DNA from: a virus
IMG/VR virus record: IMGVR_UViG_3300024308_000302
Location: 186,001 to 250,000 of that record
DNA length: 64,000 bases
Direction: 5' to 3' (one strand)
Position numbers and translations under genes: made by a program. The stretch's first letter is position 1, and each line of letters begins with the position of its first letter. This document shows positions 4,065-59,404 of this stretch, one piece after another. The notes under the pieces are model-generated. The model ran no database searches. It was not told the DNA's origin and was given only the letters and a program-made list of their open reading frames with translations.

Positions 4065-5459
4065 TTACTCTTTATCTAACAAAGTTGACATCAATCCAAT
4101 TGGTCGTCCAGTGGAACCATTATGGTCACTTGTACCAGCAATGTCTAAATGAACCCATTTTTCTTTTGGAGCAAATTCACGAAGGAAAACAGCACCATTA
4201 GTAGCACCAGCACCTTGACCTAAGCAAAGGTTATTTAAGTCTGCTACATCACTATCCAAGAAGTGTTTATAATCATCACTCAATGGAAGTCTCCATACAG
4301 TATCACCTGACTCAATGCCTGCTTCAATAAACAGTGCTGACAACTCATCATCTTCTGTAAATAAACCAGAGTGAACATGGCCAATAGCAGAAATAACAGC
4401 ACCAGTTAGCGTTGCAAAGTCAACAGTCAATGCACCATTGAATGTTTGAGCATGACAAAGAGCATCAGCAAGAACAAGACGGCCTTCTGCATCAGTATCT
4501 TCTACTTCAATAGTTTTTCCATTTTTTGCAGTAATAACATCACCCGGTTTCAAAGCACCTGCATCTGGCATATTTTCACAAGTTGCAATGATAGCAACAA
4601 CATTCTTTTTGGAATTAGTACGAATTGCATAAAGCAAAGTACCAAGAACGGTTGCAGCACCACCCATGTCACCTTTCATACGGCCCATGCCCTTCGATGG
4701 TTTGATAGAGATACCACCAGAATCAAAAGTAAGACCTTTACCAACTAAGACAATAGGATCATCACCTTCTTTGCCACCATTGTATTCAATAGTTAATAGG
4801 TGTCCTTCTTCTACTGAGCCTTTTGATACAGCATACAAAGATCCATAACCTTTTTCTTCAAGTTCTTTTCCACTTACAACAGAGACTTTAGTTTTATTAC
4901 TAAGTCCTGCAACTCGCTTGCCTTCTTCAACCAAAACAGTTGGGGTAAGATAATTTGATGGCATATCAATCAATTTCTTTTTAAGAAGAATTGCTTCTGC
5001 TAATGCAACGCCAAAAGACAGGTCTTTTTCAAAAGCTCCAATATCAGAAGAATCATTAAAAAGCAACGAAATATTTTTAGGTGTTACAGCAGTAGTGTTT
5101 GTTTTTGCTGACCAAGGAACAGAATTTTTAACAACAATAGATGATACAAGTTTTTTCATATCAATCAAATCTGAAATTACACAAATATCAGTAATATTTG
5201 ATGGTAATTTACTGATAGCGTTACCAATGGCATCTTCTACTTTTTTAGAATTTTTAGATAAGTGAACAAATGAGTAGTAAACACCAGAATAAAAAATAGA
5301 AAAATCTGATTTATCCAAATACTGGGTCAAATCTTTAGGAATATCAGGGTGAATATCAATCCCATCTTCACTAGATGAAAAAGTCGTTACAATTGCTTGT
5401 GATTTTGAAATGGCAGTAACGATTGAAACAGAAATGTTATTAAATTTATTGTCTAGCAT
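4065..5459 (-). CDS. pepA: M17 leucyl aminopeptidase
   Basis: A 464-residue cytosol aminopeptidase that removes N-terminal residues from peptides with two bound metal ions. The C-terminal half has the family blocks KGLTFDSGG and DTDAEGRLVL. K241, D246, D264, D323, E325 and R327 have exactly the spacing of the metal-binding and catalytic residues of E. coli PepA (K282, D287, D305, D364, E366, R368). The usual NTDAEGRL reads DTDAEGRL here. The N-terminal half is diverged. The start has a GGAGA site. No peptide-metabolism neighbours; single-gene unit. Confidence 0.96.
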   Translation of the reverse strand: MLDNKFNNISVSIVTAISKSQAIVTTFSSSEDGIDIHPDIPKDLTQYLDKSDFSIFYSGVYYSFVHLSKNSKKVEDAIGNAISKLPSNITDICVISDLIDMKKLVSSIVVKNSVPWSAKTNTTAVTPKNISLLFNDSSDIGAFEKDLSFGVALAEAILLKKKLIDMPSNYLTPTVLVEEGKRVAGLSNKTKVSVVSGKELEEKGYGSLYAVSKGSVEEGHLLTIEYNGGKEGDDPIVLVGKGLTFDSGGISIKPSKGMGRMKGDMGGAATVLGTLLYAIRTNSKKNVVAIIATCENMPDAGALKPGDVITAKNGKTIEVEDTDAEGRLVLADALCHAQTFNGALTVDFATLTGAVISAIGHVHSGLFTEDDELSALFIEAGIESGDTVWRLPLSDDYKHFLDSDVADLNNLCLGQGAGATNGAVFLREFAPKEKWVHLDIAGTSDHNGSTGRPIGLMSTLLDKE

Positions 5460-8904: not shown

Positions 8905-9882
8905 TTAGTACCGCATAATTTGATACAAATCAATATCTTTCATTGTCAACGATTCAACATCAGTATTGGTCTTGTCAGATATTTCATACTTCAAACGTTC
9001 AACTGTTTGATTATAAATATCATCTAAGCTTTCATAGTTTTCATGCTGCCTAAGCATGGAGTTACTTGTGAAAGAAACAGTTGTTTTAACAGCATCATCA
9101 AAAACTCTAACATGGAAATGACAAGCATTAGAGCGATAGCCATATGAAAGCTCAAATACCAAGTTGGAATCTTTTACATTGCTGATTCTGTCATTAAAAA
9201 TGATATATACGGGAGTGTCAGCATTTGGATCATCTACAATCTTAAAATAGAAATTCATCAAGCTTAGTTGTTGTTTTATTTTTGATTTCAAATCACCAGT
9301 GAATACTGTATTAACAAAATAAATCAACTCATCAAATGTATAAAAATTATGAACTGTCCGTGTAAGAACTTTAGCCATTTGAGATGGTGGAATATAATTA
9401 ATTCCAAGTTTTTTCAACTTGTCAGTAACAACTGATGTAGTTGACTGATTTAACAACATATTCAATTCTTTAAAGTTTTTTGTTTTGGGATAAATAATAT
9501 CACTCACAGTTTTCAATAGTGAAAGATAGCGAGTTTCAAGGGCAGCTTCATTTTCGATGAAAGCCTGATGTGCAATAACTGTATGTTTCCCGTTTTCCAA
9601 ATTAATCGAGCACCCCGGAAACGGTTGATAAACAATTCGGCTTGTAGAGACTTCAATATTTGATTGAAAATACTCGAAACCACTGACCTTACTATAAAGT
9701 TTAGACAATGATTCCATTTGAGACAAAGAACGCTCTGATACATCAAGAAATGGGGCCAAATAAGCATACAAATCTTTATTTGTTTTCAAAAAATATCGTT
9801 TTTCAACATTTCGATCAATGATCCCATTTTTTTTCACATAATCTTCAATGAACATGAAAACTTTAAAATATAAGTATTCCAT
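8905..9882 (-). CDS. C-terminal-tag protein, group B
   Basis: 325 residues from the ATG at 9882 (GGAG six bases upstream); a TTG four codons earlier is less likely. Shared group B features are a central NFKELNMLL segment, SLMNFYFKIV, SLDDIYNQTVERL about 45 residues from the end, and the terminal LYQIMRY, where Met is shifted one place. The stop of the upstream paralogue (9895) is 12 bases before this start, so the two form a tandem operon. Cytoplasmic by prediction; function unknown. Confidence 0.85.
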   Translation of the reverse strand: MEYLYFKVFMFIEDYVKKNGIIDRNVEKRYFLKTNKDLYAYLAPFLDVSERSLSQMESLSKLYSKVSGFEYFQSNIEVSTSRIVYQPFPGCSINLENGKHTVIAHQAFIENEAALETRYLSLLKTVSDIIYPKTKNFKELNMLLNQSTTSVVTDKLKKLGINYIPPSQMAKVLTRTVHNFYTFDELIYFVNTVFTGDLKSKIKQQLSLMNFYFKIVDDPNADTPVYIIFNDRISNVKDSNLVFELSYGYRSNACHFHVRVFDDAVKTTVSFTSNSMLRQHENYESLDDIYNQTVERLKYEISDKTNTDVESLTMKDIDLYQIMRY

Positions 9883-28863: not shown

Positions 28864-29568
28864 TTAACTAACTAATGTTCCAACCTTTTCACCTAAAGCA
28901 ATAGAACTCAAGTTGTTCTTGCCCATAACGTCACAAACAACAATTGGAATATTGAAGTCTTTACACATTGTAAAAGCAGTCATATCCATAACTTCCAAAT
29001 TCTGATCTATAGCTTCTTTGAATGTCAAAGTATCATATTTAACAGCATCTGAATATTTATTAGGATCTTTGTTATATATACCATCTACTTTGGTAGCTTT
29101 AATAATTAAATCACAGTTTAACTCTTTAGCTTTAAGACTTGAAGCAGTATCAGTAGTTGAGAATGGATTACCAGTACCAGCAGAGAGAATAACAACACGT
29201 TTCTTATTGAGATGTTTTACAGCTTTAAGACGAATGAAAGGTTCAGCAACTTCATTAACAGCAATGGCTGTCATCACACGGTTTTCAATACCTTTGGATT
29301 TGAGCACATCTTGCAAATAGAGGCCATTCATAATAGTAGCCATCATACCCATATAGTCGGCTGTTGCAGGGTCTACACCATGCCCATTCAAGCTTTTACC
29401 ACGACAAATATTACCACCACCTACGACAATAGCAATCTCTGCACCCAATTTGTGCAAGCCAGCAATTTCGTCCACAATAGCATTAACTGTTTCTTTACTA
29501 TAACCAAATTTATCATCACCCATAAGTGACTCACCACTTAACTTCAACAGTATACGTTTATATTTCAT
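28864..29568 (-). CDS. pyrH: UMP kinase
   Basis: A 234-residue bacterial uridylate kinase (amino-acid-kinase fold) converting UMP and ATP to UDP and ADP. It has LKLSGESL (8-15), VVGGGNICRG (48-57), DYMGMMATIMNG (71-82), SAGTGNPFSTTDTAS (129-143) and IKATKVDGIYNKDP (156-169), all in place. GAGGA ribosome site. In most bacteria pyrH lies between tsf and frr; neither is here. It is apparently intact; whether it is the sole copy cannot be told. Confidence 0.97.
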   Translation of the reverse strand: MKYKRILLKLSGESLMGDDKFGYSKETVNAIVDEIAGLHKLGAEIAIVVGGGNICRGKSLNGHGVDPATADYMGMMATIMNGLYLQDVLKSKGIENRVMTAIAVNEVAEPFIRLKAVKHLNKKRVVILSAGTGNPFSTTDTASSLKAKELNCDLIIKATKVDGIYNKDPNKYSDAVKYDTLTFKEAIDQNLEVMDMTAFTMCKDFNIPIVVCDVMGKNNLSSIALGEKVGTLVS

Positions 29569-48750: not shown

Positions 48751-49440
48751 TTAATTGGCATCAGGTGTAATAACCTTGCCTACATATCGTTTACCAGTTG
48801 AATAATCAGCATAAAGCTCAAATACAACATAGGTATCGTGGTCTTTCAAATTATCCAGAATAAAACTTTTATCATTATGGTTTGGAACAAGAGGCCCAAC
48901 CATTTCTTGAAGTGTTTCATTAGGCAAAATTGGAAGTAAATGGCTGTTAAAGTTATCTCTCTTAGTACATCCATAACCTTTATAGAGATTTTTACTATCA
49001 ATAATGAATGTATTTAGATCTTCATCTGCTTTAAATTTCAGATAAACAAACTTGTCTTTGATAAGTTGATCACCATCATATAGAAAGTTTGAAGCAAAAG
49101 ATTGAGCATCTACTTTTTTGCGGAAAGTATATTCATTAAAAAGATCAACAAGTGCTTGGCTATCAAATTCCGAAAATCCTCTTTGAACCAAATACTCTAT
49201 TTTTTTTGAAAAAGAAGTATGAAAGTCAAAAGTTTCAAAATAATTATAACAAAGATCAAGATGAATTCTAAAACGATCTTTAATAATAAAGTCACTAGCA
49301 AAACACAAAATGGTAGATTCTGGTGTAGGCGAATGAAGGAATGCAACAGCAATGCTGCTATCTTGTTTACCTAAAATAACATTCAGCTTGGTAAGGAATT
49401 CGTTTTGTTTTTCATGAACTTCTGAAATATTTAGGCTCAT
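48751..49440 (-). CDS. Hypothetical protein
   Basis: A 229-residue soluble protein (MSLNISEVHEKQNEFLTKLN) with TGGAG upstream and its own promoter. Contains VYLKFKADEDLNTFIIDSKN and ends YVGKVITPDAN. Operon partner of 48040. Function unknown. Confidence 0.82.
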   Translation of the reverse strand: MSLNISEVHEKQNEFLTKLNVILGKQDSSIAVAFLHSPTPESTILCFASDFIIKDRFRIHLDLCYNYFETFDFHTSFSKKIEYLVQRGFSEFDSQALVDLFNEYTFRKKVDAQSFASNFLYDGDQLIKDKFVYLKFKADEDLNTFIIDSKNLYKGYGCTKRDNFNSHLLPILPNETLQEMVGPLVPNHNDKSFILDNLKDHDTYVVFELYADYSTGKRYVGKVITPDAN

Positions 49441-49485
49441 TTAAAAGCTCCATCAAAATGTGTGGTGTATTGAATGACATCAGAG

Positions 49486-49514
49486 ATTATATCAAAAATG
49501 ATGGAAAGAATCAA
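49486..49514 (-). promoter_or_regulatory. Sigma70-type promoter with extended -10
   Basis: Minus strand TTGATT, 17 bases, TATAAT preceded by TGA; serves 48751-48040. It overlaps no gene. Confidence 0.75.
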
Positions 49515-49518
49515 ACAA

Positions 49519-49540
49519 AAAAAGAAGCATACGCCTCTTT
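49519..49540 (-). terminator. GAGGC-type terminator, diverged
   Basis: AAAGAGGC/GCTTCTTT on the minus strand with a GTAT loop and one G-U pair; about 95 bases after the gene at 49635. Confidence 0.65.
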
Positions 49541-49634
49541 CTGATTGCTATATAATGTCATTTTAAGGTTTCATATTATTGATATTTTTCTTTTGTAAGC
49601 ATAGAAGACTAAGTAAATTTAAATAAATTTTAAA

Positions 49635-50096
49635 TTAAAGTACAAATAGTTGTTTAAATTCTTCTTTAGTTAGCGTTCCATCAATATAGGCTTGTGTTAC
49701 ATTATAATAAGATCCATTTTTATATTTTTCTAATATTCTTTTACCACCAATATATTTAACAACTGTACTTATGTATAATAGTTTTTCAGGTATTTCTTCT
49801 GGTTCCTGTATATGCTCTTTTTTATGTTCATTTATAAAATAATCATACCTTTTACTGCTTTCTTCATCATCATAAAAATGAGTATGAAGGTAAAATTCTT
49901 CAATATTGTCAAACAGTTTAATAGAATCTGGATTAGAATCATGAATAAATAAATAAACGCCACTTTTTTTACTGATAATACTATTACCTGAAAGATCTCG
50001 GGCTAAAACTTCAGAATTTCCATCAAGAAGAAATAACTCTGAGTTAAATTTTATATTATCCTGATTAATATTAATAGTAAAATACTTTGATTTCAA
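49635..50096 (-). CDS. Possible immunity protein next to HNH toxin tail
   Basis: A 153-residue soluble protein starting at a TTG (AGGAG nine bases upstream), one base after the stop of the HNH-like reading frame at 50098. It is rich in acidic and aromatic residues (YFINEHKKEHIQEPEEIPEK). This is the position and size of an immunity gene downstream of a polymorphic toxin. The assignment rests on context only; I recognise no immunity family. Confidence 0.7.
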   Translation of the reverse strand: MKSKYFTININQDNIKFNSELFLLDGNSEVLARDLSGNSIISKKSGVYLFIHDSNPDSIKLFDNIEEFYLHTHFYDDEESSKRYDYFINEHKKEHIQEPEEIPEKLLYISTVVKYIGGKRILEKYKNGSYYNVTQAYIDGTLTKEEFKQLFVL

Positions 50097-50097
50097 T

Positions 50098-50329
50098 TTA
50101 ATTTACTCCTGAGTTTCTTAAAAATGAAGCTCCACCTTGATGACGTACACTATCATGTACAATTCTTTTAACTAAAGACATTGATTTTCCATCAGGCTCA
50201 TGATGAAAGATAAGGTCATTTTTATTTACAAAGTCTATATTATCAATCCCTGAATAAAGACTTTGTATAAAATCGATGAAGTTTATAAATTTCAGTAGCC
50301 CTTTCTTCTGTAATTGGAATAAGATTTAA
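50098..50329 (-). pseudogene. HNH/Endo VII-type toxin tail, no start codon
   Basis: A reading frame with no usable start, ending at 50098. It reads NKNDLIFHHEPDGKSMSLVK and then IVHDSVRHQGGASFLRN. The order HH, DGKSM, LV, H and H.GGAS is typical of the HNH/Endo VII toxin superfamily (WHH, LHH and SHH subgroups). Its 5' part overlaps the end of 50243-50614 in another frame. It may be a remnant, the C-terminus of that gene after a frameshift, or a toxin cassette fused by recombination. Confidence 0.6.
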
Positions 50330-50614
50330 TAATTTAGACTTTTCTGAGTTATGTTCAAAAACATTATAAAACCAAGAACCAACAGCAGCAGTATAGGTAT
50401 TCCCCGGAGCACATGAAACTCTTTTAAATTTTGGAATTGGATTGCCAAAACCATCAACAGTAGTAACAGTTGAAATATAAAGAGCTGAATTATCTCCTTT
50501 ATCACTATCAATATAAAACTTTGAACCCAAATAAGGATTGTCTTTATACAATTTAATAACTTCAAGTAATACAAACAATAAAAATAGAGAGCAAATAATA
50601 AGAATAATATTCAT
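50243..50614 (-). CDS. Membrane-anchored protein before HNH-like frame
   Basis: A 123-residue protein with one N-terminal membrane helix (residues 2-18), TAGGA upstream, and a 100-residue outer domain (SKFYIDSDKGDNSALYIS). The HNH-like frame overlaps its last 29 codons. If a frameshift joined them, the product would be a membrane-tethered or exported nuclease toxin; that is inference. Confidence 0.72.
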   Translation of the reverse strand: MNIILIICSLFLLFVLLEVIKLYKDNPYLGSKFYIDSDKGDNSALYISTVTTVDGFGNPIPKFKRVSCAPGNTYTAAVGSWFYNVFEHNSEKSKLLNLIPITEERATEIYKLHRFYTKSLFRD

Positions 50615-50887
50615 ATAGAAATCCTATAATAAAAAACAATAAATAGCAGTCTATCATTATACTACTTATAAATTTCCTTCACATTATAACAAAAAATGGT
50701 AGATTTGTAAACAATTATAAAGAATATCACCTGTAAAATATTTGAAGGCAACTAGAAGCTTAGCCAAAGTAATAAAAAAGATGATTATATAAAGAACACT
50801 TTTGTTAAATGTAAAATTTTAATTTAACTTATTGATTGAATATAAAAAGTAGATATGATTAAATAATTAAAGACAAAGGTAAAAGAA

Positions 50888-51199
50888 ATGGAATATATAA
50901 ACGCTAACGGAATAAATAATAACTCAAATCAACCACAACCAGAAAATGAAGAAGTAGATAAATGTATTAAATATTTAAAAAATATAATAGAAAATGATGT
51001 ATATAACAAAACCACTAGCAGCTATGCTCTTAAACATTTAATAGACAAAGAAGAGACATATGTCTCAAATGGTGCATTTATAGAAGCATTGCGTATATTA
51101 AAAATGAGTTATGAAAGATGTTCTGAAGAGTCGCCAAATGTTTGGGTAAAATTTGATATAAAAGATTTAGAAAGAGCAATAAAAGAATACAAAAGTTGA
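50888..51199 (+). CDS. Small hypothetical protein
   Basis: A 103-residue protein (MEYINANGINNNSNQPQPEN) with AAAGG upstream. The part SSYALKHLIDKEETYVSNGA, then SPNVWVKFDIKDLE, resembles a small bacterial family with a YVSNGAFI...G.PN.....I pattern, which I cannot name. Followed by a strong terminator and then a degenerate RNA-ligase tail. Confidence 0.8.
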   Translation: MEYINANGINNNSNQPQPENEEVDKCIKYLKNIIENDVYNKTTSSYALKHLIDKEETYVSNGAFIEALRILKMSYERCSEESPNVWVKFDIKDLERAIKEYKS

Positions 51200-51202
51200 T
51201 AA

Positions 51203-51226
51203 AAAAGAGGCTTCGGCCTCTTTTTA
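51203..51226 (+). terminator. GAGGC-type terminator
   Basis: 10-base stem AAAAAGAGGC/GCCTCTTTTT with a TTCG loop, after 50888-51199. Confidence 0.9.
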
Positions 51227-51239
51227 TCATCACTCTACA

Positions 51240-51290
51240 TTATTTTTTCTTCTTGCTACGCTCATCAAACTTCTCAAATGTAGCATTTGC
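51240..51290 (-). pseudogene. Degenerate copy of RNA ligase C-terminal tail
   Basis: Minus-strand frame ending in TAA at 51240-51242 encodes NATFEKFDERSKKKK, matching LPCFGKFDSRNKNKK at the end of the RNA ligase (56116-56769). The homology continues past it: CATATATAGAAAGAT here and CATATGTAGAAAGAT at 53358. No start or upstream coding sequence. Confidence 0.65.
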
Positions 51291-51316
51291 ATATATAGAA
51301 AGATAATTTAAAAAAA

Positions 51317-51898
51317 TTATGCAATTAGATCATATTTTAATTTATGATCATTGATTTTCTGTTTAAACATTTCAGTCATTTCATCTAATGTTAAAAGATG
51401 AAGATGTTCTTCTAGCTCATACCAACATCTAAAATCTTTTAAATAAGAGATAATCATTTCTTTATCACAAGGACCAAGAAGAATATAATAAATTTTATAC
51501 TTTTCACGACATGAAAACTTCTCAGTAATATACTCAGAATATTTTTTTAATTCTACTACAAGTCTACCAATAAGTTCTTCATTTGCTTTTTTAACATTCA
51601 CCGTTTTTTCTGAAATAGATTTAACTTCAATATTTAAATAATAATCCGCAAAATCGGCAATTTTAAATGCTTCTGACGACCTGAAATTACTTTCTCTCTT
51701 GTGTAACCGCACTTGGCTGTCTAAAACAAATGGAAATCTGTTGAAATATTCAGCTTTTACAGTCTCACCTTTTTTTAAAGCCATCTGATATAATTTTACT
51801 AATTTATCACGTTGATTAATAAAACAACCAATTTCTTTAAGCCTTTTTTCAACAATCTTCTCTGCTTTCTTTCCATTTATATACGAAACTTTAGACAT
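51317..51898 (-). CDS. PD-(D/E)XK nuclease-like protein
   Basis: A 193-residue soluble, lysine-rich protein. Residues 82-93 (DFADYYLNIEVK) fit the D...ExK core of PD-(D/E)XK nucleases, with D82 or D85, E91 and K93. The preceding SSEAFKIA and following hydrophobic strand YKIYYILLG suit the fold. No partner methyltransferase nearby. Could be a nuclease in a defence or repair role, or a non-enzymatic relative. Promoter TGCTATAAT at 51934-51942. Confidence 0.68.
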   Translation of the reverse strand: MSKVSYINGKKAEKIVEKRLKEIGCFINQRDKLVKLYQMALKKGETVKAEYFNRFPFVLDSQVRLHKRESNFRSSEAFKIADFADYYLNIEVKSISEKTVNVKKANEELIGRLVVELKKYSEYITEKFSCREKYKIYYILLGPCDKEMIISYLKDFRCWYELEEHLHLLTLDEMTEMFKQKINDHKLKYDLIA

Positions 51899-51933
51899 TA
51901 GAATATAAACCTTTATATCTTGAATTTGAAAGT

Positions 51934-51942
51934 ATTATAGCA
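51934..51942 (-). promoter_or_regulatory. Extended -10 promoter element with hairpin
   Basis: Minus strand TGCTATAAT, 36 bases before the start at 51898. A 7-base inverted repeat GCATGAA/TTCATGC (51940-51960) lies right behind it, in the -35 region, and could be an operator. Confidence 0.55.
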
Positions 51943-52067
51943 TGAAGACTGTTTTCATGCTACTATTTTTTGTTGTTGGCTGAAATAAGATAGTCCATAG
52001 ATTTAGTATTGAGTTGATTTTTTTTATTTTGATAATAAAATTTTAATAATTAATAAAAGAATAAAAG

Positions 52068-53198
52068 ATGACAGAAATTAAGAATATAAGAATATTATTA
52101 GAATACTATTTTAATAATTTTAAAGATGAATACGCAATAGCTACTTCAGTATTAATGTATGTAGATACAAGTAGCGAATTTGCAATAAAAAAAGAAATTG
52201 AGAAAAGAGTTGATCTTTTTGACAATAAAGATATAGACATTAAAGATAAATGTGAAAAAGTTTTTAATATTTTAGAAGATATAAAAGAAAATATTGGATT
52301 AAATTTTGGTAAAAACGAACAAATATTATATAATGAAAATAAATTTACATCAAGCTTCAAATTGCTTTCTGATTTTTGCAAAGGTGCTTCAATAATAAAT
52401 TCTGCATATTCCAAGGAATATATAGATATGACAGGAAAAGGATATAAAAGAATGTTGTCACAATTATTGACAAAAATCAATAACAACTTAATTGAAGTCA
52501 TTATTGAAAAAAAGAATAATAATCTTGATAGTATAGTAAAATCAGAAACTGATTATATAAGTAATATGAAAAGTAATAAAACAAATAATGGCATAAAATT
52601 GCTTAATTATCATGCTTCAATAGAAAGGGATAGAAAAGAGTATATAGAAAATGAAATAAAAAAAATAAATAATGATAATAAAATAATTGGTGAAGCAATA
52701 GGTTGTTTTTTGTTAAACTATCATAAAACATACGAATTTGAAATAGATCATTATACCGAATTAATAAAACACTTAAGAAAAAATATAGAGCCAAAAGAAA
52801 GAACTGAATTTGAAGGTGTGATACAAGCATCAGATTATGCTATTAGCTATTGGGCTACTAATTTTGACAAAATAAAAAGTGAAGAACAAAAAATAAATGA
52901 TGAATTTGAAAGTTGGAATTTAAAAAGCTTTCTTAGCTCTGTAGTTGCAGGAAAATTATTGACACAGAAAAATATTGACGAATTAACTTTTATAAGTGAG
53001 TTAAGGTTTATTAACAACAATAACGGGCAAGAAATGAACAGTATTGAAGTTAAAAAAATATTTGATAAAGCAATGGAAGAAAAACAAAAAATTAAACAAA
53101 AAGTAAAAGTAAAGGAACCAGAAATACTAAAAGAAATAGAAAAAAAAGAAGAAAAAATAGGTTTTATAAAAAGAGGCATAAATTGGTTTTATAAATAA
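52068..53198 (+). CDS. Large lysine-rich hypothetical protein
   Basis: A 376-residue, mostly helical protein, very rich in Lys, Asn, Ile and Glu, with only a weak ribosome site. Long charged helices run through it (IKKINNDNKIIGEAI) and a lysine/glutamate coiled coil lies near the C-terminus (KQKVKVKEPEILKEIEKKEE), ending in FIKRGINWFYK. Extreme A+T content sets it apart from most of the window. Function unknown. Confidence 0.8.
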   Translation: MTEIKNIRILLEYYFNNFKDEYAIATSVLMYVDTSSEFAIKKEIEKRVDLFDNKDIDIKDKCEKVFNILEDIKENIGLNFGKNEQILYNENKFTSSFKLLSDFCKGASIINSAYSKEYIDMTGKGYKRMLSQLLTKINNNLIEVIIEKKNNNLDSIVKSETDYISNMKSNKTNNGIKLLNYHASIERDRKEYIENEIKKINNDNKIIGEAIGCFLLNYHKTYEFEIDHYTELIKHLRKNIEPKERTEFEGVIQASDYAISYWATNFDKIKSEEQKINDEFESWNLKSFLSSVVAGKLLTQKNIDELTFISELRFINNNNGQEMNSIEVKKIFDKAMEEKQKIKQKVKVKEPEILKEIEKKEEKIGFIKRGINWFYK

Positions 53199-53218
53199 AG
53201 AAGAGGCAGAAGCCTCTT
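53199..53218 (+). terminator. GAGGC-type terminator
   Basis: AAGAGGC/GCCTCTT with an AGAA loop after 52068-53198. It is also the start of the 157-base duplicated block. Confidence 0.85.
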
Positions 53219-53357
53219 ATGTTTTTGGCAGTTTCTCCGAATATTCACGCTTCTTCTAAGAAGTGGTGACACCCAAATAACCGTCCAAGGTTACATCATT
53301 TTTTGTGCTTGTTGCGACTGTCAAACTTACCAAAGCATGGAAGCCCGAAATCCTTTC
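53201..53357. repeat. Recent duplicate of RNA ligase 3' region
   Basis: 157 bases nearly identical to 56022-56177: I count three differences, including one insertion. It covers the terminator, about 75 bases of non-coding sequence with inverted repeats (CTTCTT-CT-AAGAAG) and the last 20 codons of the RNA ligase. Confidence 0.9.
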
Positions 53358-53628
53358 ATATGTAGAAAGATCATGTAAAGTTTTATTTATCATACTCATT
53401 AAAATATTGAATTTACTTACTGTACAGAATATCTTAAAACTAAGATGTATCTGATATACAACATATTTTTATAAATATATTTTTGAAATTAATTAATGAA
53501 GATTATAATTATAAAAAAAGGAAAATAAAATCAATGAAATGCACTATTGATTTTCAAAAAAATAAAAAGTATCATAGTAAAAACACTAATTTTTTTTAGA
53601 TAAGTATAGAAATAATTAAGGAGATATT
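53219..53628. other. Intergenic region with ligase tail copy
   Basis: About 410 bases without a complete gene. 53219-53357 is the duplicated RNA-ligase block. 53358-53628 is very A+T-rich. A 21-codon frame at 53534 (MKCTIDFQKN) has a poorly placed ribosome site and is not called. Confidence 0.6.
53296..53357 (-). pseudogene. RNA ligase C-terminal fragment, near-identical copy
   Basis: The frame ending in TGA at 53296-53298 encodes KDFGLPCFGKFDSRNKHKK, one residue different from the intact gene. A stop codon lies just upstream in the same frame, and homology ends at 53357, so it is a fragment. Confidence 0.85.
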
Positions 53629-53817
53629 ATGACAACTAAAGCAGAAATATATAACGAAAAAGATGAGTTAATAAATACTTTTGAAGGTGTTAATTTAATT
53701 CCAATAAAAGATGGAAGTTCAATATTCGCAAATAGTTCATCGCAAAGACCAGTATTATATTATAATTTAAAACCGGGCCATTATATTAAGAATATATTAA
53801 CATCAATAACTAAATAA
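53629..53817 (+). CDS. Small hypothetical protein
   Basis: A 62-residue soluble protein (MTTKAEIYNEKDELINTFEG) with a strong AAGGAGA site and its own terminator. No family recognised. Its terminator is followed, as at 51.2 and 53.2 kb, by a ligase-tail-like fragment. Confidence 0.75.
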   Translation: MTTKAEIYNEKDELINTFEGVNLIPIKDGSSIFANSSSQRPVLYYNLKPGHYIKNILTSITK

Positions 53818-53834
53818 ACAAGATAAAAATAGAA

Positions 53835-53862
53835 TAAAAAAGAGGCTACTGCCTCTTTTTTT
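53835..53862 (+). terminator. GAGGC-type terminator
   Basis: AAAAAGAGGC/GCCTCTTTTT stem with a TACT loop after 53629-53817. Confidence 0.9.
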
Positions 53863-53877
53863 TACCATCATACTATA

Positions 53878-53928
53878 TCAATTTTTCTTCTTATAACGTT
53901 CATAAAAATTGAAGAATGAAGCAAAACT
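53878..53928 (-). pseudogene. Degenerate copy of RNA ligase C-terminal tail
   Basis: The frame ending in TGA at 53878-53880 encodes ASFFNFYERYKKKN, similar to ATFEKFDERSKKKK at 51240 and CFGKFDSRNKNKK in the intact ligase. The weakest of the three fragments, but in the same position and orientation relative to a plus-strand gene and terminator. Confidence 0.45.
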
Positions 53929-53962
53929 AAAATCTTTAAATATGTCAAAAGTAATTAAACTT

Positions 53963-55600
53963 TTAAATAACATCAATAACAAGATTAATTGCAAAAGAAT
54001 TATTAAGAAGATCTGATTTTAAGTCAGGATAACCAGCATAAATATTATTTGTTATAGCCACTCTAATTGGTTCATATAAATTATCTTCTAAATATGTTTT
54101 TAAATTATCATCTTGTATCGAATCTATGATTTCGTCAAATAAATCATTAAAATCTTCTAAGCAATAATTTAAGATCTCGCTTTTACTAATAGTTGAAAGA
54201 AAAGGAATATTGAAATTTTTCAAATTTAAAGAATTTCCACCTTTGGACAAATAAATATAAACACAATTTTTAAAAGAATAAAATAATTTATAGTATAAAA
54301 TATAATTGACTAATTTTTTTCGATAAACAGCTTTCATTTTATTACTGATAACTTTTCTTTTGGCTGCTTTATATTTATTAGTAGAGAAAAAGAGTTCCAA
54401 GAAACTTGGGTTATCTTTCAAAGAATCAGAATAGGCATTAAATAAATCATAAATAATATCTATGTTATTTATTTTTTTGAGCATATTTTTAGGACAATAA
54501 TATATGCCAATTTTATTTGACGACAAAGAATCGCAATTATTGTTGATATTTTTAAGATGCCATTTTTTGTTTTGTTTTTTTAATTCATTAAAATAAGTAT
54601 TTTTTGCTTTAATTTCTTTATTTTTTTCTTTCATTGTTTTTAAAATGGTGCTCTCTTTATATATTGGTGGATTACACAGTATACAAACGTTATTTCTGGC
54701 ATATGATTTTCTTATGCCTTTTATTGAACAATTAACACAATTAATAGTTTTTAACTTTAAAAATTTTCTACAAATGTAACAAGAAAAAGAATCTGATGAT
54801 CTTGATAATTTTATCAGGGTTTTATAATCATGATAATGCTCTCCAAAAAAATTAACACAATTTGGACATTTAACTTTATCGATTACAACAGGTATTCTGA
54901 AAATAACATCATTATATGAAGAATGATTAAAAAGAATAATAAAGTGTTTTAAATCATCATAAAGAAAATAAGTAGGCAATTTATTTATGCTTAAATGTTT
55001 ATTTATTGTATACAAAGGCATTAAAGAAACAGCAGCTACAAAATAATTAGAACGTGCCAAATTGGTAAGATTATTAATCATATCTTTCCTAAAATATAAA
55101 AAATAATCTATTAAAAATTGTTTTTTCTTACTCAAAACAAAATAACAAACAATATAGTCATTTAAAATTTTATTTAAATCATTTTTAATATTTTCTACAT
55201 TGAAAAGGTATGAAGTGTGGCTGTCAGCATTTCGCTTTGAATTAATATCATAAAATAACAAATTGAAATCATTATAATTAATTGGATTTTTTTCGAAAAA
55301 ATCATTACCATGTAGACTCTTAACAATATCAATTAGAATCGATGCATTTACTGATCTTATGGTATTACCTGTTTCAGAAGAGATATTAGCGTTTACATCT
55401 TTTTCAACAACTAAGCCTCGTAATGTGAGTTCACAATAATCATGTAAAGATGAATAAAGCTCTGTATAAAATAAATTAATATTACGCTTCCCAATATAAC
55501 CAGAATCTATAAATGCTGAAATATTGAAAAAATTCTCAAAGAAAATGGCATTAGCTTTATTATAGAAAAGATCTGGATCTGAATTAAACATTTTACTCAT
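53963..55600 (-). CDS. Zinc-ribbon-rich hypothetical protein
   Basis: 545 residues from the ATG at 55600, which has a perfect AGGAGG site. A 39-residue hydrophobic extension upstream has none. Residues about 275-345 hold four CxxC pairs (CPNC, CYIC, CVNC, CILC), probably two zinc ribbons. Flanking regions are helical and rich in Lys, Asn and Tyr. It may bind nucleic acid. Extreme A+T content. Function unknown. Confidence 0.83.
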   Translation of the reverse strand: MSKMFNSDPDLFYNKANAIFFENFFNISAFIDSGYIGKRNINLFYTELYSSLHDYCELTLRGLVVEKDVNANISSETGNTIRSVNASILIDIVKSLHGNDFFEKNPINYNDFNLLFYDINSKRNADSHTSYLFNVENIKNDLNKILNDYIVCYFVLSKKKQFLIDYFLYFRKDMINNLTNLARSNYFVAAVSLMPLYTINKHLSINKLPTYFLYDDLKHFIILFNHSSYNDVIFRIPVVIDKVKCPNCVNFFGEHYHDYKTLIKLSRSSDSFSCYICRKFLKLKTINCVNCSIKGIRKSYARNNVCILCNPPIYKESTILKTMKEKNKEIKAKNTYFNELKKQNKKWHLKNINNNCDSLSSNKIGIYYCPKNMLKKINNIDIIYDLFNAYSDSLKDNPSFLELFFSTNKYKAAKRKVISNKMKAVYRKKLVNYILYYKLFYSFKNCVYIYLSKGGNSLNLKNFNIPFLSTISKSEILNYCLEDFNDLFDEIIDSIQDDNLKTYLEDNLYEPIRVAITNNIYAGYPDLKSDLLNNSFAINLVIDVI

Positions 55601-56017
55601 AAAACCTCCTAAATTAAAATTTATATCCAATATTACATAATATATCATAAATAAAGTAGTCTTTAAAAAAATAGAGTCTTTTTGAACTATGAAAATAGGT
55701 AATAAAAATAAAACCAACTATTTTTATATCTTTATATCATATAAATTAATAAAAAATATACAAAAAAGACATATAACGTGTAATATATTATAAATAAAGT
55801 AAATTGTTAATACAAATATATTATTGAAAAATGAAAATATTTTTTACGTTTTTTATAAATCTAAACGAAGATTTATAAAGTTAATTTATATATAATAATG
55901 CTTATTTTATAAGCTTATTTCTTAAGTTTTTGAACAAATACATATAAAACAGCAATTTTAGAACATTTTTTATCAATATATGTAAAAATAAAAACGTGAA
56001 GTTTTTTTAATAGAAAT
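55601..56017. other. Non-coding A+T-rich region with perfect hairpin
   Basis: About 415 bases without a gene, visibly above 80% A+T. It contains an 11-base perfect inverted repeat, TTTATAAATCT (55852-55862) and AGATTTATAAA (55869-55879), around the loop AAACGA. No T-run of terminator type follows closely. It may be an operator, a small RNA or a replication element. Confidence 0.5.
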
Positions 56018-56019
56018 AA

Positions 56020-56040
56020 AAAAGAGGCCGAAGCCTCTTA
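56020..56040 (-). terminator. GAGGC-type terminator
   Basis: AAAAGAGGC/GCCTCTT stem with a CGAA loop, about 75 bases after the RNA ligase stop codon. Confidence 0.85.
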
Positions 56041-56177
56041 TGTTTTTGGCAGTTTCTCCGAATATTCACGCTTCTTCTAAGAAGTGGTGACACCCAAATA
56101 ACCGTCCAAGGTACATCATTTTTTGTTCTTGTTGCGACTGTCAAACTTACCAAAGCATGGAAGCCCGAAATCCTTTC
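56022..56177. repeat. Parental copy of duplicated RNA ligase 3' region
   Basis: 156-base block matching 53201-53357: terminator, non-coding stretch with inverted repeats at 56071-56084, and the final codons of the ligase gene. Confidence 0.9.
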
Positions 56178-56769
56178 TCCTTAATTTAGCATAACGCCCA
56201 TCAGGATGGTGGAAAACAAGTCCTTCTTCGTTTTCAAACTTGTCTTCGAAAAGTTTTTTCAAACCTTCAAAAGAGAAGTCAGTCACTTCAAACGCAACAC
56301 TACCATGTTCCCAGAGTTCGTGGCGAGTAAGGTTGTAGGGGTTGCCATTAACCTTTGGGCCAACAAGTTCGTAGGTTTTGCCATCCTTCAACTCTCCAGA
56401 ATTTGCAAGAGCCTCAAGGTGAAACTTGTCCTCTGGACCTTCACCAACAGGAACCCAGTGTGGGAAATGCAGGCTATGAGCAGCAGGCTTAGCTTCACAA
56501 GGAATAGCACCTGCTGGAACCTCATTGAACATATGGTCTTCTGGTACAAACTTATCGCCCAATTTACGAGCCAATTTCGAGAAATTCGATTTCAGCTTGC
56601 GGTCAAAGCGTTTAAACAGTTTGCCATCCTTGAAGTAGGCAGACGAACCATCAAACTTGATAGTAGCCTTGCCTTCACCACGAACAACCCATTCCGCACC
56701 CGGAGTAACAACATCGGTAGCAAGATCAGTATTACGGTCAATCACGAACAGAGTTTTGATTTTTTTCAT
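56116..56769 (-). CDS. RNA ligase (Rnl1-like, DUF5565-type)
   Basis: A 217-residue nucleotidyltransferase-fold ligase that probably joins RNA ends through an enzyme-AMP intermediate. Nucleotidyl motif I is KFDG with the reactive lysine at K38. Then RFDRK (54-58), the motif III-like TYELVGPKVNGNP (132-144), the motif IV EEGLVFHHPDG (181-191) and motif V AKLRRKD (194-200). It lacks a separate C-terminal domain. Clearly richer in G+C than its neighbours, suggesting recent acquisition. AGGAGA site. Promoter TGCTATACT near 56850. Confidence 0.88.
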   Translation of the reverse strand: MKKIKTLFVIDRNTDLATDVVTPGAEWVVRGEGKATIKFDGSSAYFKDGKLFKRFDRKLKSNFSKLARKLGDKFVPEDHMFNEVPAGAIPCEAKPAAHSLHFPHWVPVGEGPEDKFHLEALANSGELKDGKTYELVGPKVNGNPYNLTRHELWEHGSVAFEVTDFSFEGLKKLFEDKFENEEGLVFHHPDGRYAKLRRKDFGLPCFGKFDSRNKNKK

Positions 56770-56911
56770 GTTAAATCTCCTAAATAGATTAAAGTAGTTT
56801 TCGAATCCAACCGCCTCTATTTAAGGGTTTCCCCTCTGTTTGTGAAGCTAGTATAGCAAAACACGACCTATTGTGCAAGATTTTTTTTAACCAATGATAT
56901 CGAAATTACTA

Positions 56912-57559
56912 TCAAATAATTAACATCCTGAGTGTAATTAGATTATTTTCAAATTCACTAGTATTAATACGATAAGCACCATCAAAGTACCATTCTGGAA
57001 ACAATTCCTTTGTAATTTCTTTATCATCATTGAGAAATACTTCAAGAAGCCTAAATTCATCATCTAATGGACAAAGCATATTACGATGCTTAGTAACGTT
57101 CAAAACAATATCTTGACTTGATTTTGATTTAAGATAATGAAGCGATTGATATTCAAAGTTGCTATCATATGAAATTGAGATTTTGTAACCTAACATGCCA
57201 GATTTAGAGCATCTTTTTACAATCGTATAAGATAAATCGACATTTGATATAATACCATTATTGTCAGTAGTAACTATACAATTACTTCCAAAAACAATAT
57301 TACTATTAAGCTGTTTTAAAAAATGAGAAATAGGCAATATCGGACTTAAACCAGTTAGCTCGATTTTTTGATTGTTGTAGGCATAAAACTTATCAAAATT
57401 TTTGATATTCTGTTGTTCGCTCATAAAAGAACTGTCAAATTTATTGAATACCAATCGTGCAATATTGCTTACAAAAGATTGAGCTTGTTTCTTTTTTTTC
57501 ATAGCTGCATCATAGTTTTCTTGATAAACACTATAATTTGATTTTAAGGTAGGCGTCAT
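56912..57559 (-). CDS. C-terminal-tag protein, short
   Basis: A 215-residue soluble protein (MTPTLKSNYSVYQENYDAAM). It ends NLITLRMLII, the shared signature. The middle has GSNCIVTTDNNGIISNVDLS. It lies 14 bases after 57574 and is probably in one operon with that gene and 57764. Function unknown. Confidence 0.82.
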   Translation of the reverse strand: MTPTLKSNYSVYQENYDAAMKKKKQAQSFVSNIARLVFNKFDSSFMSEQQNIKNFDKFYAYNNQKIELTGLSPILPISHFLKQLNSNIVFGSNCIVTTDNNGIISNVDLSYTIVKRCSKSGMLGYKISISYDSNFEYQSLHYLKSKSSQDIVLNVTKHRNMLCPLDDEFRLLEVFLNDDKEITKELFPEWYFDGAYRINTSEFENNLITLRMLII

Positions 57560-57573
57560 AATTAATTACCTTT

Positions 57574-57801
57574 TTAAATAAAAAGTCGAGTAAAATCAAC
57601 AATAACATCTCTATTATTGTTGCATTGTTTACCACAGCATTTACATTTACGATTTGACTTTTGAATGTCTTCCAAAACAGCCAAAGCTCGCTTGTTAGCA
57701 GCGATAGCTCTTGATTCAGCTTCTTTTGCTCTAGCTAAAGCATAATCAGCACGAGCAAACAAATCAGTCAGGTTGGACAATGATTTTAACTCCTTTACCA
57801 T
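57574..57801 (-). CDS. Small coiled-coil protein with cysteine cluster
   Basis: 75 residues from the ATG at 57801, overlapping the end of 57764-58345. A TTG seven codons later (57780) has a better placed AAAGGAG and may be the real start. An alanine-rich coiled coil (ARADYALARAKEAESRAIAA) is followed by CKCCGKQC, a likely metal site. Function unknown. Confidence 0.72.
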   Translation of the reverse strand: MVKELKSLSNLTDLFARADYALARAKEAESRAIAANKRALAVLEDIQKSNRKCKCCGKQCNNNRDVIVDFTRLFI

Positions 57802-58345
57802 TCGTATATTCAGGCAAGCTGCTCCAAACATAAAGGTTATCTACAAAATGTGGTGGTTCAACACGTTCAATTTCAAGAGCTTCTGCCATTTTTGTTGCAC
57901 GAGTAATAGCTTCTTCTGAAGTTAAGAAACTTGCAATGATTACTGTATTTTCGACTTCATATTTGATAATTGCACCATTATCTTCTGGATCAAAAGATGG
58001 CCTATAACCACTGACACCACGTTTAACGTTTTGAATGATAATCGAATAGGATTGATCATTACTGGGGTCATAATCAAGGTACTTAAGTTCATAACAAATA
58101 GCAAAATTACCTTTGCCAAAGTCTTCAAAATTCTTCCATCCCATAACAGAACGACCTGTAGCCCCACTGGTCCAATCTTTTTTCGTAATATAGACTAAAG
58201 TTCCTTTGGACAATCCATAAACATCCTGATTGAGAACTGTTTTAATAATGCAATCTTTTAATTGTTTAGTCTCATCCAAATTGTCTGTTTTTTTTGGGGT
58301 GCTCTCACCAAAAATTAAATCACCAAACTTTTTAAGACCATCCAT
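57764..58345 (-). CDS. Hypothetical protein
   Basis: A 193-residue soluble protein (MDGLKKFGDLIFGESTPKKT) with AAGGAGA upstream and its own promoter. Contains TLVYITKKDWTSGATGRSVM. First gene of the 57764-56912 operon. No family recognised. Confidence 0.82.
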   Translation of the reverse strand: MDGLKKFGDLIFGESTPKKTDNLDETKQLKDCIIKTVLNQDVYGLSKGTLVYITKKDWTSGATGRSVMGWKNFEDFGKGNFAICYELKYLDYDPSNDQSYSIIIQNVKRGVSGYRPSFDPEDNGAIIKYEVENTVIIASFLTSEEAITRATKMAEALEIERVEPPHFVDNLYVWSSLPEYTNGKGVKIIVQPD

Positions 58346-58369
58346 AATGTTCTCCTTAGATTTAGGTGT

Positions 58370-58398
58370 ATTATATCAAATTTTTGAAAATTACTCAA
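58370..58398 (-). promoter_or_regulatory. Sigma70-type promoter with extended -10
   Basis: Minus strand TTGAGT, 17 bases, TATAAT preceded by TGA; serves 58345-56912. Confidence 0.7.
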
Positions 58399-58453
58399 GC
58401 GATAAACATCATTTCAAAAAGTCAAGGTATAATCATTCAGGATTTTGGTGTCC

Positions 58454-59404
58454 TTAACCTTTAAATTTGTTACAAACTTGAATCTTTTGTTTTTCATTTT
58501 TACGCTGGAAATTCAACTTATAGAAAACCATCTGGTTGAGCACATCAAGCGTATACGCGGCATCATTGCCAGCAACATGCAGTCTCAAATAAGGAATATC
58601 AAATGTACGAAGGGCTGTTCGAAGAGAAGCTGTCTCATTTTTAACATGATCACTGTTCAAGAAATGAAACTCATTTTTTGAAACATAAGAAGTATCAATG
58701 AAATTCATATTCTCAATAAACTCTTCTTCAAGGCCAAGCTGTTTCAGAATACTAATTTCAGTACAAAGATTATGGCCAACCAAATAATCACAATCAGAAA
58801 AATGCTCTTTGAAAATATCCAAAATAGCAGTTTTGTCGATATTGGAGGTTTCACCATAGTTAAAACGGTCTTTAGACTCATTTGAGAAAGAATAGTTGTA
58901 TGACATTCTTTGGCCATTTACTTGAATAGAAACACCCATTTCAAGCGGTTCAAAGTAATCACCAATGGTTACAAATTCAAAATCAAGAGCCATTAATTTC
59001 TTATCAGCAATATTTGTAGGCAATGGCCGATTGAATGACTCAATTAAATTTGATTTCTTTTTTTTCTTAGTAACACAAGCTTCCTGACGCAATAGCTCAA
59101 GTTCACGCAAATCATTTAAAGAGTTCACAAAAAAGCAGGCGTCTACTTCTGTAACTGTACTTTTCTCATAAGGTGCTGTTTTTTTCTTGATTCGAAAACG
59201 TTTATAAAGCTCGTTTTGAAATAATTGAAAAGATTCAACATCAATATAGAGCAATGAATTTTGAGTGTAGATTTTAGAGAAAATTTTAAGGTCAATAAGG
59301 TTTTCAGAGGTAAAAAACTTTTTAACAGCAGCAATTTTTTCAGATTCTTCCAATGGAATTCGGTTAAATGTTACGCCACGAATTTTGTCAATATTGTAGT
59401 ACAT
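58454..59404 (-). CDS. DEDDh 3'-5' exonuclease-like protein (Gfd2-like)
   Basis: A 316-residue protein with an RNase H-fold exonuclease domain from about residue 137. Exo I is ALDFEF (D141, E143). Exo II is LVGHNLCTEISIL, where E216 stands in the place of the usual Asp. Exo III is RLHVAGNDAAYTLDVL (H276, D281). The HxAGNDAxYTL wording is characteristic of the fungal Gfd2/YDR514C DEDDh group. The N-terminal 135 residues are not recognised. Expected to trim RNA or DNA 3' ends. GAGG site. Confidence 0.82.
   Translation of the reverse strand: MYYNIDKIRGVTFNRIPLEESEKIAAVKKFFTSENLIDLKIFSKIYTQNSLLYIDVESFQLFQNELYKRFRIKKKTAPYEKSTVTEVDACFFVNSLNDLRELELLRQEACVTKKKKKSNLIESFNRPLPTNIADKKLMALDFEFVTIGDYFEPLEMGVSIQVNGQRMSYNYSFSNESKDRFNYGETSNIDKTAILDIFKEHFSDCDYLVGHNLCTEISILKQLGLEEEFIENMNFIDTSYVSKNEFHFLNSDHVKNETASLRTALRTFDIPYLRLHVAGNDAAYTLDVLNQMVFYKLNFQRKNEKQKIQVCNKFKG

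Follow-up and report, generated by a model that had tools for sequence, protein, structure and literature searches.

Displaced versions of an RNA ligase 3' end in a viral genome and a possible recurrent insertion site

Results

The RNA ligase locus and its setting

The window analysed here, 64,000 nucleotides in length, spans positions 186001-250000 of a virus record of 290 kb in IMG/VR. It contains an intact RNA ligase gene, a near-identical copy of the 3' end of that gene, two more diverged remnants of it, and a set of ORFs dispersed between these tails (positions are those of the window):

56116..56769, minus strand: intact RNA ligase, 217 aa, with profile matches
56015..56177, minus strand: current ligase 3' block, comprising the last 20 codons (KDFG...KNKK, stop), a GC-rich 3' UTR and a GAGGC terminator
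53963..55717, minus strand: 584-aa orphan ORF (545 aa from an internal ATG)
53940..53967, minus strand: flank of remnant 2, resembling the flank of the copy and overlapping the stop of the 584-aa ORF
53871..53934, minus strand: remnant 2, a displaced, AT-rich tail; its ligase-frame reading is KDFSFASFFNFYERYKKKN-stop
53629..53817, plus strand: 62-aa ORF, converging on remnant 2
53358..53384, minus strand: candidate insert end, the foreign sequence flanking the copy, TTTACATGATCTTTCTACATAT as read on the minus strand
53194..53357, minus strand: displaced, near-identical copy of the ligase 3' block, leaving ligase sequence at 53357/53358
52068..53198, plus strand: 376-aa orphan ORF, converging on the copy
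51317..51898, minus strand: 193-aa orphan ORF, its end adjoining the flank of remnant 1
51291..51312, minus strand: flank of remnant 1, 19/22 identical to the flank of the copy
51236..51290, minus strand: remnant 1, a displaced tail reading FEKFDERSKKKK-stop and lacking ~11 nt near the break
50888..51199, plus strand: 103-aa ORF, converging on remnant 1

An earlier note on this DNA had placed the extra tails upstream of the ligase; on the gene's own strand they lie downstream. Along that strand the ligase and its current tail are followed by the 584-aa ORF, remnant 2, the 62-aa ORF and the copy, and then by the 376-aa and 193-aa ORFs, remnant 1 and the 103-aa ORF.

The virus is probably a giant phage, judging from its IMG/VR class, a tRNA array and phage-type gene matches rather than from hallmark genes. 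A terminase is absent from the record by the one family tested, and the record may therefore be a fragment. A simple ORF rule predicts 463 genes in the whole record, of which 389 are minus-strand and 74 plus-strand. The 35 tRNA-like genes are located at ~33-40 kb, 105-130 kb, 140 kb, 163-184 kb and 257-263 kb of the record (L006, L007, L010-L015); ten of them are tRNA-Leu(UAA), many nearly identical, an unusual number for one isoacceptor that is possibly linked to the RNA-repair ligase. Elsewhere the record encodes two TnpB/Cas12f1-like proteins of 565 aa (L015:16692-18389) and 356 aa (L010:12190-13260), with no CRISPR-like repeats by a crude scan, and a 511-aa protein (L011:868-2403) with a match to Pfam Shufflon_N (PilV-like), which is odd for a virus record. 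Host-like genes include a sodium/proton exchanger (L012:2645-3997), an M17 leucyl aminopeptidase (window 4065-5459) and a member of the amino-acid-kinase family (UMP kinase-like; window 28864-29568). Between window positions 8905 and 61801, many minus-strand orphan proteins of ~210-380 aa display a common C-terminal pattern by eye (...LQM..I, ...EEMK.I or ...MI.F), as if they formed one expanded paralogous family.

The ligase and its C-terminal extension

The ligase is recovered by phrog_14301 (E=5e-47) and Pfam RLIG1 (3e-9); the phrog_14301 profile covers its length, the K-x-x-DFG type C-terminal motif is present, and the gene is in these respects an ordinary member of the family of phage RNA ligases. 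Its conserved core ends at AKLRRKDFG and is followed by an extension of ~15 residues that is absent from its nearest relatives, the closest being a Hahella ligase (51% identical) that terminates in KDFGFSW. Among the phrog_14301/RLIG1 relatives compared, such an extension after KDFG is seen only in the present ligase; they end a few to about fifteen residues from the DFG motif and lack the lysine-rich ending, which indicates a lineage-specific extension. The 3' block (window 56016-56177) forms, next to the terminator, a long hairpin (MFE -47, z -3.3) that is also found in the copy and is missing from remnants 1 and 2. An integron-like attC was considered as an account of this fold and rejected: its box motifs are not seen by eye and the two remnants lack the hairpin.

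Three further versions of the ligase tail

The copy at 53201-53357 matches 56022-56177 over 157 bases with two substitutions and one 1-base indel, bearing out the three differences originally counted. It thus forms a direct repeat of the ligase 3' end, 98% identical, on either side of the intervening segment. The similarity extends further, to ~53194/56015, such that its starting point lies at the GAGGC terminator; at the other end it continues nearly unbroken as far as GAAAGGATTTCGGG, beyond which there is no relation to the ligase body. The two remnants are more distant, and their kinship with the ligase end, proposed in the earlier note, is upheld. When aligned in the register of the stop codon, remnant 1 matches the ligase end at 33/43 positions and remnant 2 at 27/43 and 39/64. 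The proposal was to fall if random lysine-rich tails matched equally well, and they do not: the 1175 other ORF ends in the record, the ligase itself aside, peak at 23/43 and 30/64. Likewise, an ungapped scan of both strands with the last 64 nt of the ligase, in pieces spanning the whole 290-kb record, returned the ligase itself (64), the copy (63) and remnant 2 (39), and no other site with at least 38/64. Whole-record blastn with remnant 1 retrieves remnant 2 (9e-9), the ligase (6e-5) and the copy (5e-4), all within the locus and all on one strand, as had been claimed; the next match stands at 0.014. Chance similarity among lysine-rich tails is ruled out by these in-register statistics and whole-record scans. 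Remnant 2 had initially been delimited as 53878-53928, a real match drawn too short, since it extends to a run of KDFS codons at ~53934.

Relative to the ligase (KDFGLPCFGKFDSRNKNKK), the mismatches of remnant 2 (KDFSFASFFNFYERYKKKN) are distributed over codon positions 1, 2 and 3 as 7, 3 and 14 (20 codons; Fisher p=0.001). This third-position bias indicates that remnant 2 diverged as a coding ligase end, before its displacement. Its GC content is 22%, against 42% in the copy and the current block, and neither remnant possesses the GC-rich structured UTR. In remnant 1 the KDFG codons are not recognisable, and the absence of ~11 nt near its break is consistent with decay. A search for an older tail to the left of the 103-aa ORF, and for extra traces of tails in the gaps between ORFs, yielded none, and nowhere else in the 290-kb record was a comparable local duplication of a gene tail found.

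A common breakpoint and similar flanks

In both the copy and remnant 2, similarity to the ligase breaks off at one and the same codon, immediately ahead of the conserved KDFG. Sequence resembling the flank of the copy is present beyond the break of both remnants and absent from the intact ligase: the flank of the copy matches that of remnant 1 over 22 nt (empirical P 0.0002) and that of remnant 2 over 36 nt (empirical P 0.0004). Between the flanks of the two remnants there is no significant match (P 0.11); with the flank of the copy as query, two unrelated sites in the record tie with remnant 1. Similar foreign sequence next to displaced tails, on which the earlier note had not remarked, points to related insert ends, and we regard the sequence comparisons as moderate evidence for such ends at one site.

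Terminators, intervening ORFs and candidate enzymes

The record has ~22 GAGGC hairpins, and the window accounts for 14. They are thus common enough that the presence of one next to every tail is in itself weak evidence. They adjoin the plus-strand cargo ORFs, as in the common bounding terminators of the T4-type PeSL cassettes discussed below. A promoter scan found 56 sites against 52.6 in shuffled sequences, which is no excess. The copy and both remnants each follow a plus-strand ORF, as the earlier note had said of all the tails; the intact ligase tail does not, and the interval adjoining it has no plus-strand gene at all. The accompanying idea that each event brought in a new plus-strand gene is too simple, since the ORFs between the tails lie on both strands (193 and 376 aa; 62 aa; 584 aa).

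The cargo ORFs have no family or PDB sequence match and no detectable relatives. By eye alone, the 584-aa protein has CxxC pairs and a HEPN-like RNADSH motif, and the 193-aa protein a PD-(D/E)XK-like pattern (IADF...IEVKS); single-sequence structure predictions for the two were uninformative (pLDDT 35 and 40). Searches by DNA, by UTR pattern and with several proteins recovered no close relatives of the locus in phages, plasmids or viral contigs. Tyrosine integrase (PF00589) and serine recombinase (PF00239) have no match in the record, itself possibly incomplete, and neither do GIY-YIG and HNH_3; one HNH gene and the two TnpB-like genes lie far from the ligase, and no recombinase or classical homing endonuclease was recognised at the locus. 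Two self-splicing alternatives were discarded, a group I or II intron because 49000-58500 has no Rfam match at E<=1, and an intein because the ligase frame meets a stop at the junction just before the tail of the copy.

Discussion

Four related tails, a breakpoint codon common to the copy and remnant 2, and the coding-type divergence of remnant 2 together make repeated events that renewed the ligase tail, the central claim of the earlier note, a well-supported reading. As to how these events took place, we give about even odds to the ligase 3' end being a recurrent insertion site, at which inserts supply a fresh C-terminus, a terminator and cargo. An incoming segment would carry its own version of the last ~20 codons of the ligase, with the stop, the terminator and then the cargo, and would be joined to the resident gene immediately ahead of the conserved KDFG codons. 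In this way the ligase would remain intact with a new tail, its previous one having been displaced downstream, behind the far end of the insert. Placement may depend on site-specific cleavage or recombination at KDFG, by a homing-type nuclease or by a recombinase provided in trans. The order of the locus is what such serial displacement of C-termini would leave; about three separate insertions would account for it, the two near-identical blocks presumably representing the newest. The position of the AT-rich remnant 2 between two GC-rich, near-identical blocks implies either alternating donors of different composition or a composite insert.

The serious rival, and the main one, is module shuffling without a dedicated mobile element, in which homologous or illegitimate recombination or template switching would reassort small cargo genes, homology being provided by the tails and by dispersed GAGGC terminators. 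A GAGGC terminator marks the exact start of the large repeat, such hairpins are frequent and no recombinase was found in the record, all of which would suit shuffling; yet it predicts neither the common breakpoint codon of the copy and remnant 2 nor the similar flanks beyond it, and gene-tail scars are absent at the other GAGGC sites in the record. We rate it as possible, at somewhat under one chance in three. If the whole ligase gene had been duplicated in tandem, with the older bodies then lost and the cargo genes arriving later, the coding-type relationship of the tails to the ligase end would be explained. However, no second ligase body can be traced anywhere in the record, and deletion endpoints should scatter, whereas the copy and remnant 2 break at one codon; we hold this history to be improbable. 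That the tail blocks are functional 3' UTR/terminator modules common to neighbouring genes, with the ligase extension a by-product of fusion, seems very improbable to us. It draws on the position of every tail, either next to a terminator or in the interval separating one from a minus-strand ORF or the ligase, on the good folding of the ligase block (z -3.3) and on the lack of the extension in ligase relatives, but it is at odds with remnant 2, which shows the divergence pattern of protein-coding sequence when read in the ligase frame and retains KDF, and with the want of a GC-rich structured UTR in both remnants.

Known systems offer parallels to the locus. The mobile regulatory cassettes named PeSLs, reportedly described from T4-type phages by Arbiol et al. 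in 2010, are said to consist of small novel genes bounded by repeated terminator elements, for which shuffling was proposed. The present locus resembles them in having small novel genes between repeated terminators in a phage-like genome. PeSLs reportedly also have a conserved early promoter with the stem-loop; a promoter scan that gives no more sites than shuffles, as here, is compatible with either the presence or the absence of one at the locus. A difference is that no gene-tail duplication is known to us from PeSLs.

Closer likenesses are offered by two systems in which a gene tail is displaced. The e14 prophage in E. coli icd generates a 165-bp C-terminal duplication of 54 residues (PMC11148124). 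There too the insertion point lies within a coding gene, in its 3' part; a C-terminus encoded by the element re-establishes the reading frame, and the displaced C-terminal segment comes to lie on the far side of the element; direct repeats of the gene's 3' end flank the element, as the 157-base repeat flanks the segment here. Unlike the present intervals of ~0.6-2.8 kb, for which no integrase was found, e14 is a complete prophage that encodes an integrase, and the ligase locus has several displaced tails in series. In the fungal mitochondrial mORFs (Allomyces and Glomus; atp6, atp9, cox2 and nad3), native C-termini are displaced and are 64-81% identical to the inserted ones (PMC3630166). The pattern is again one of a new C-terminus and an ORF within a gene, an older C-terminus displaced downstream and diverged tails, and the ligase locus has the corresponding in-frame C-terminus with displaced C-termini downstream, and any of these tails could be the foreign one. 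In contrast to the ORFs here, which match no endonuclease, mORFs encode recognisable ones, and they leave one displaced end per gene (PMC3630166), as against three at the ligase. As documented single-step precedents, e14/icd and the fungal mORFs speak for the reading of serial displacement.

A broader proposition, which we put forward as speculative and rather unlikely, is that a family of very small cargo elements without a recombinase of their own homes repeatedly to the last conserved codons of an RNA-repair ligase in large phages, renewing its C-terminus, with the displaced tails as a chronological record. Should the recurrent-insertion reading itself be right, the conserved codon run that ends an RNA-repair gene would serve as a landing site, through which the virus would gain accessory genes and keep its ligase, and the sequence of acquisitions could be read from the displaced tails. 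Displacement of gene tails, so far known from prophages and mitochondria in single events, would then extend to serial events in a virus genome, and the locus would show where further accessory genes might be sought.
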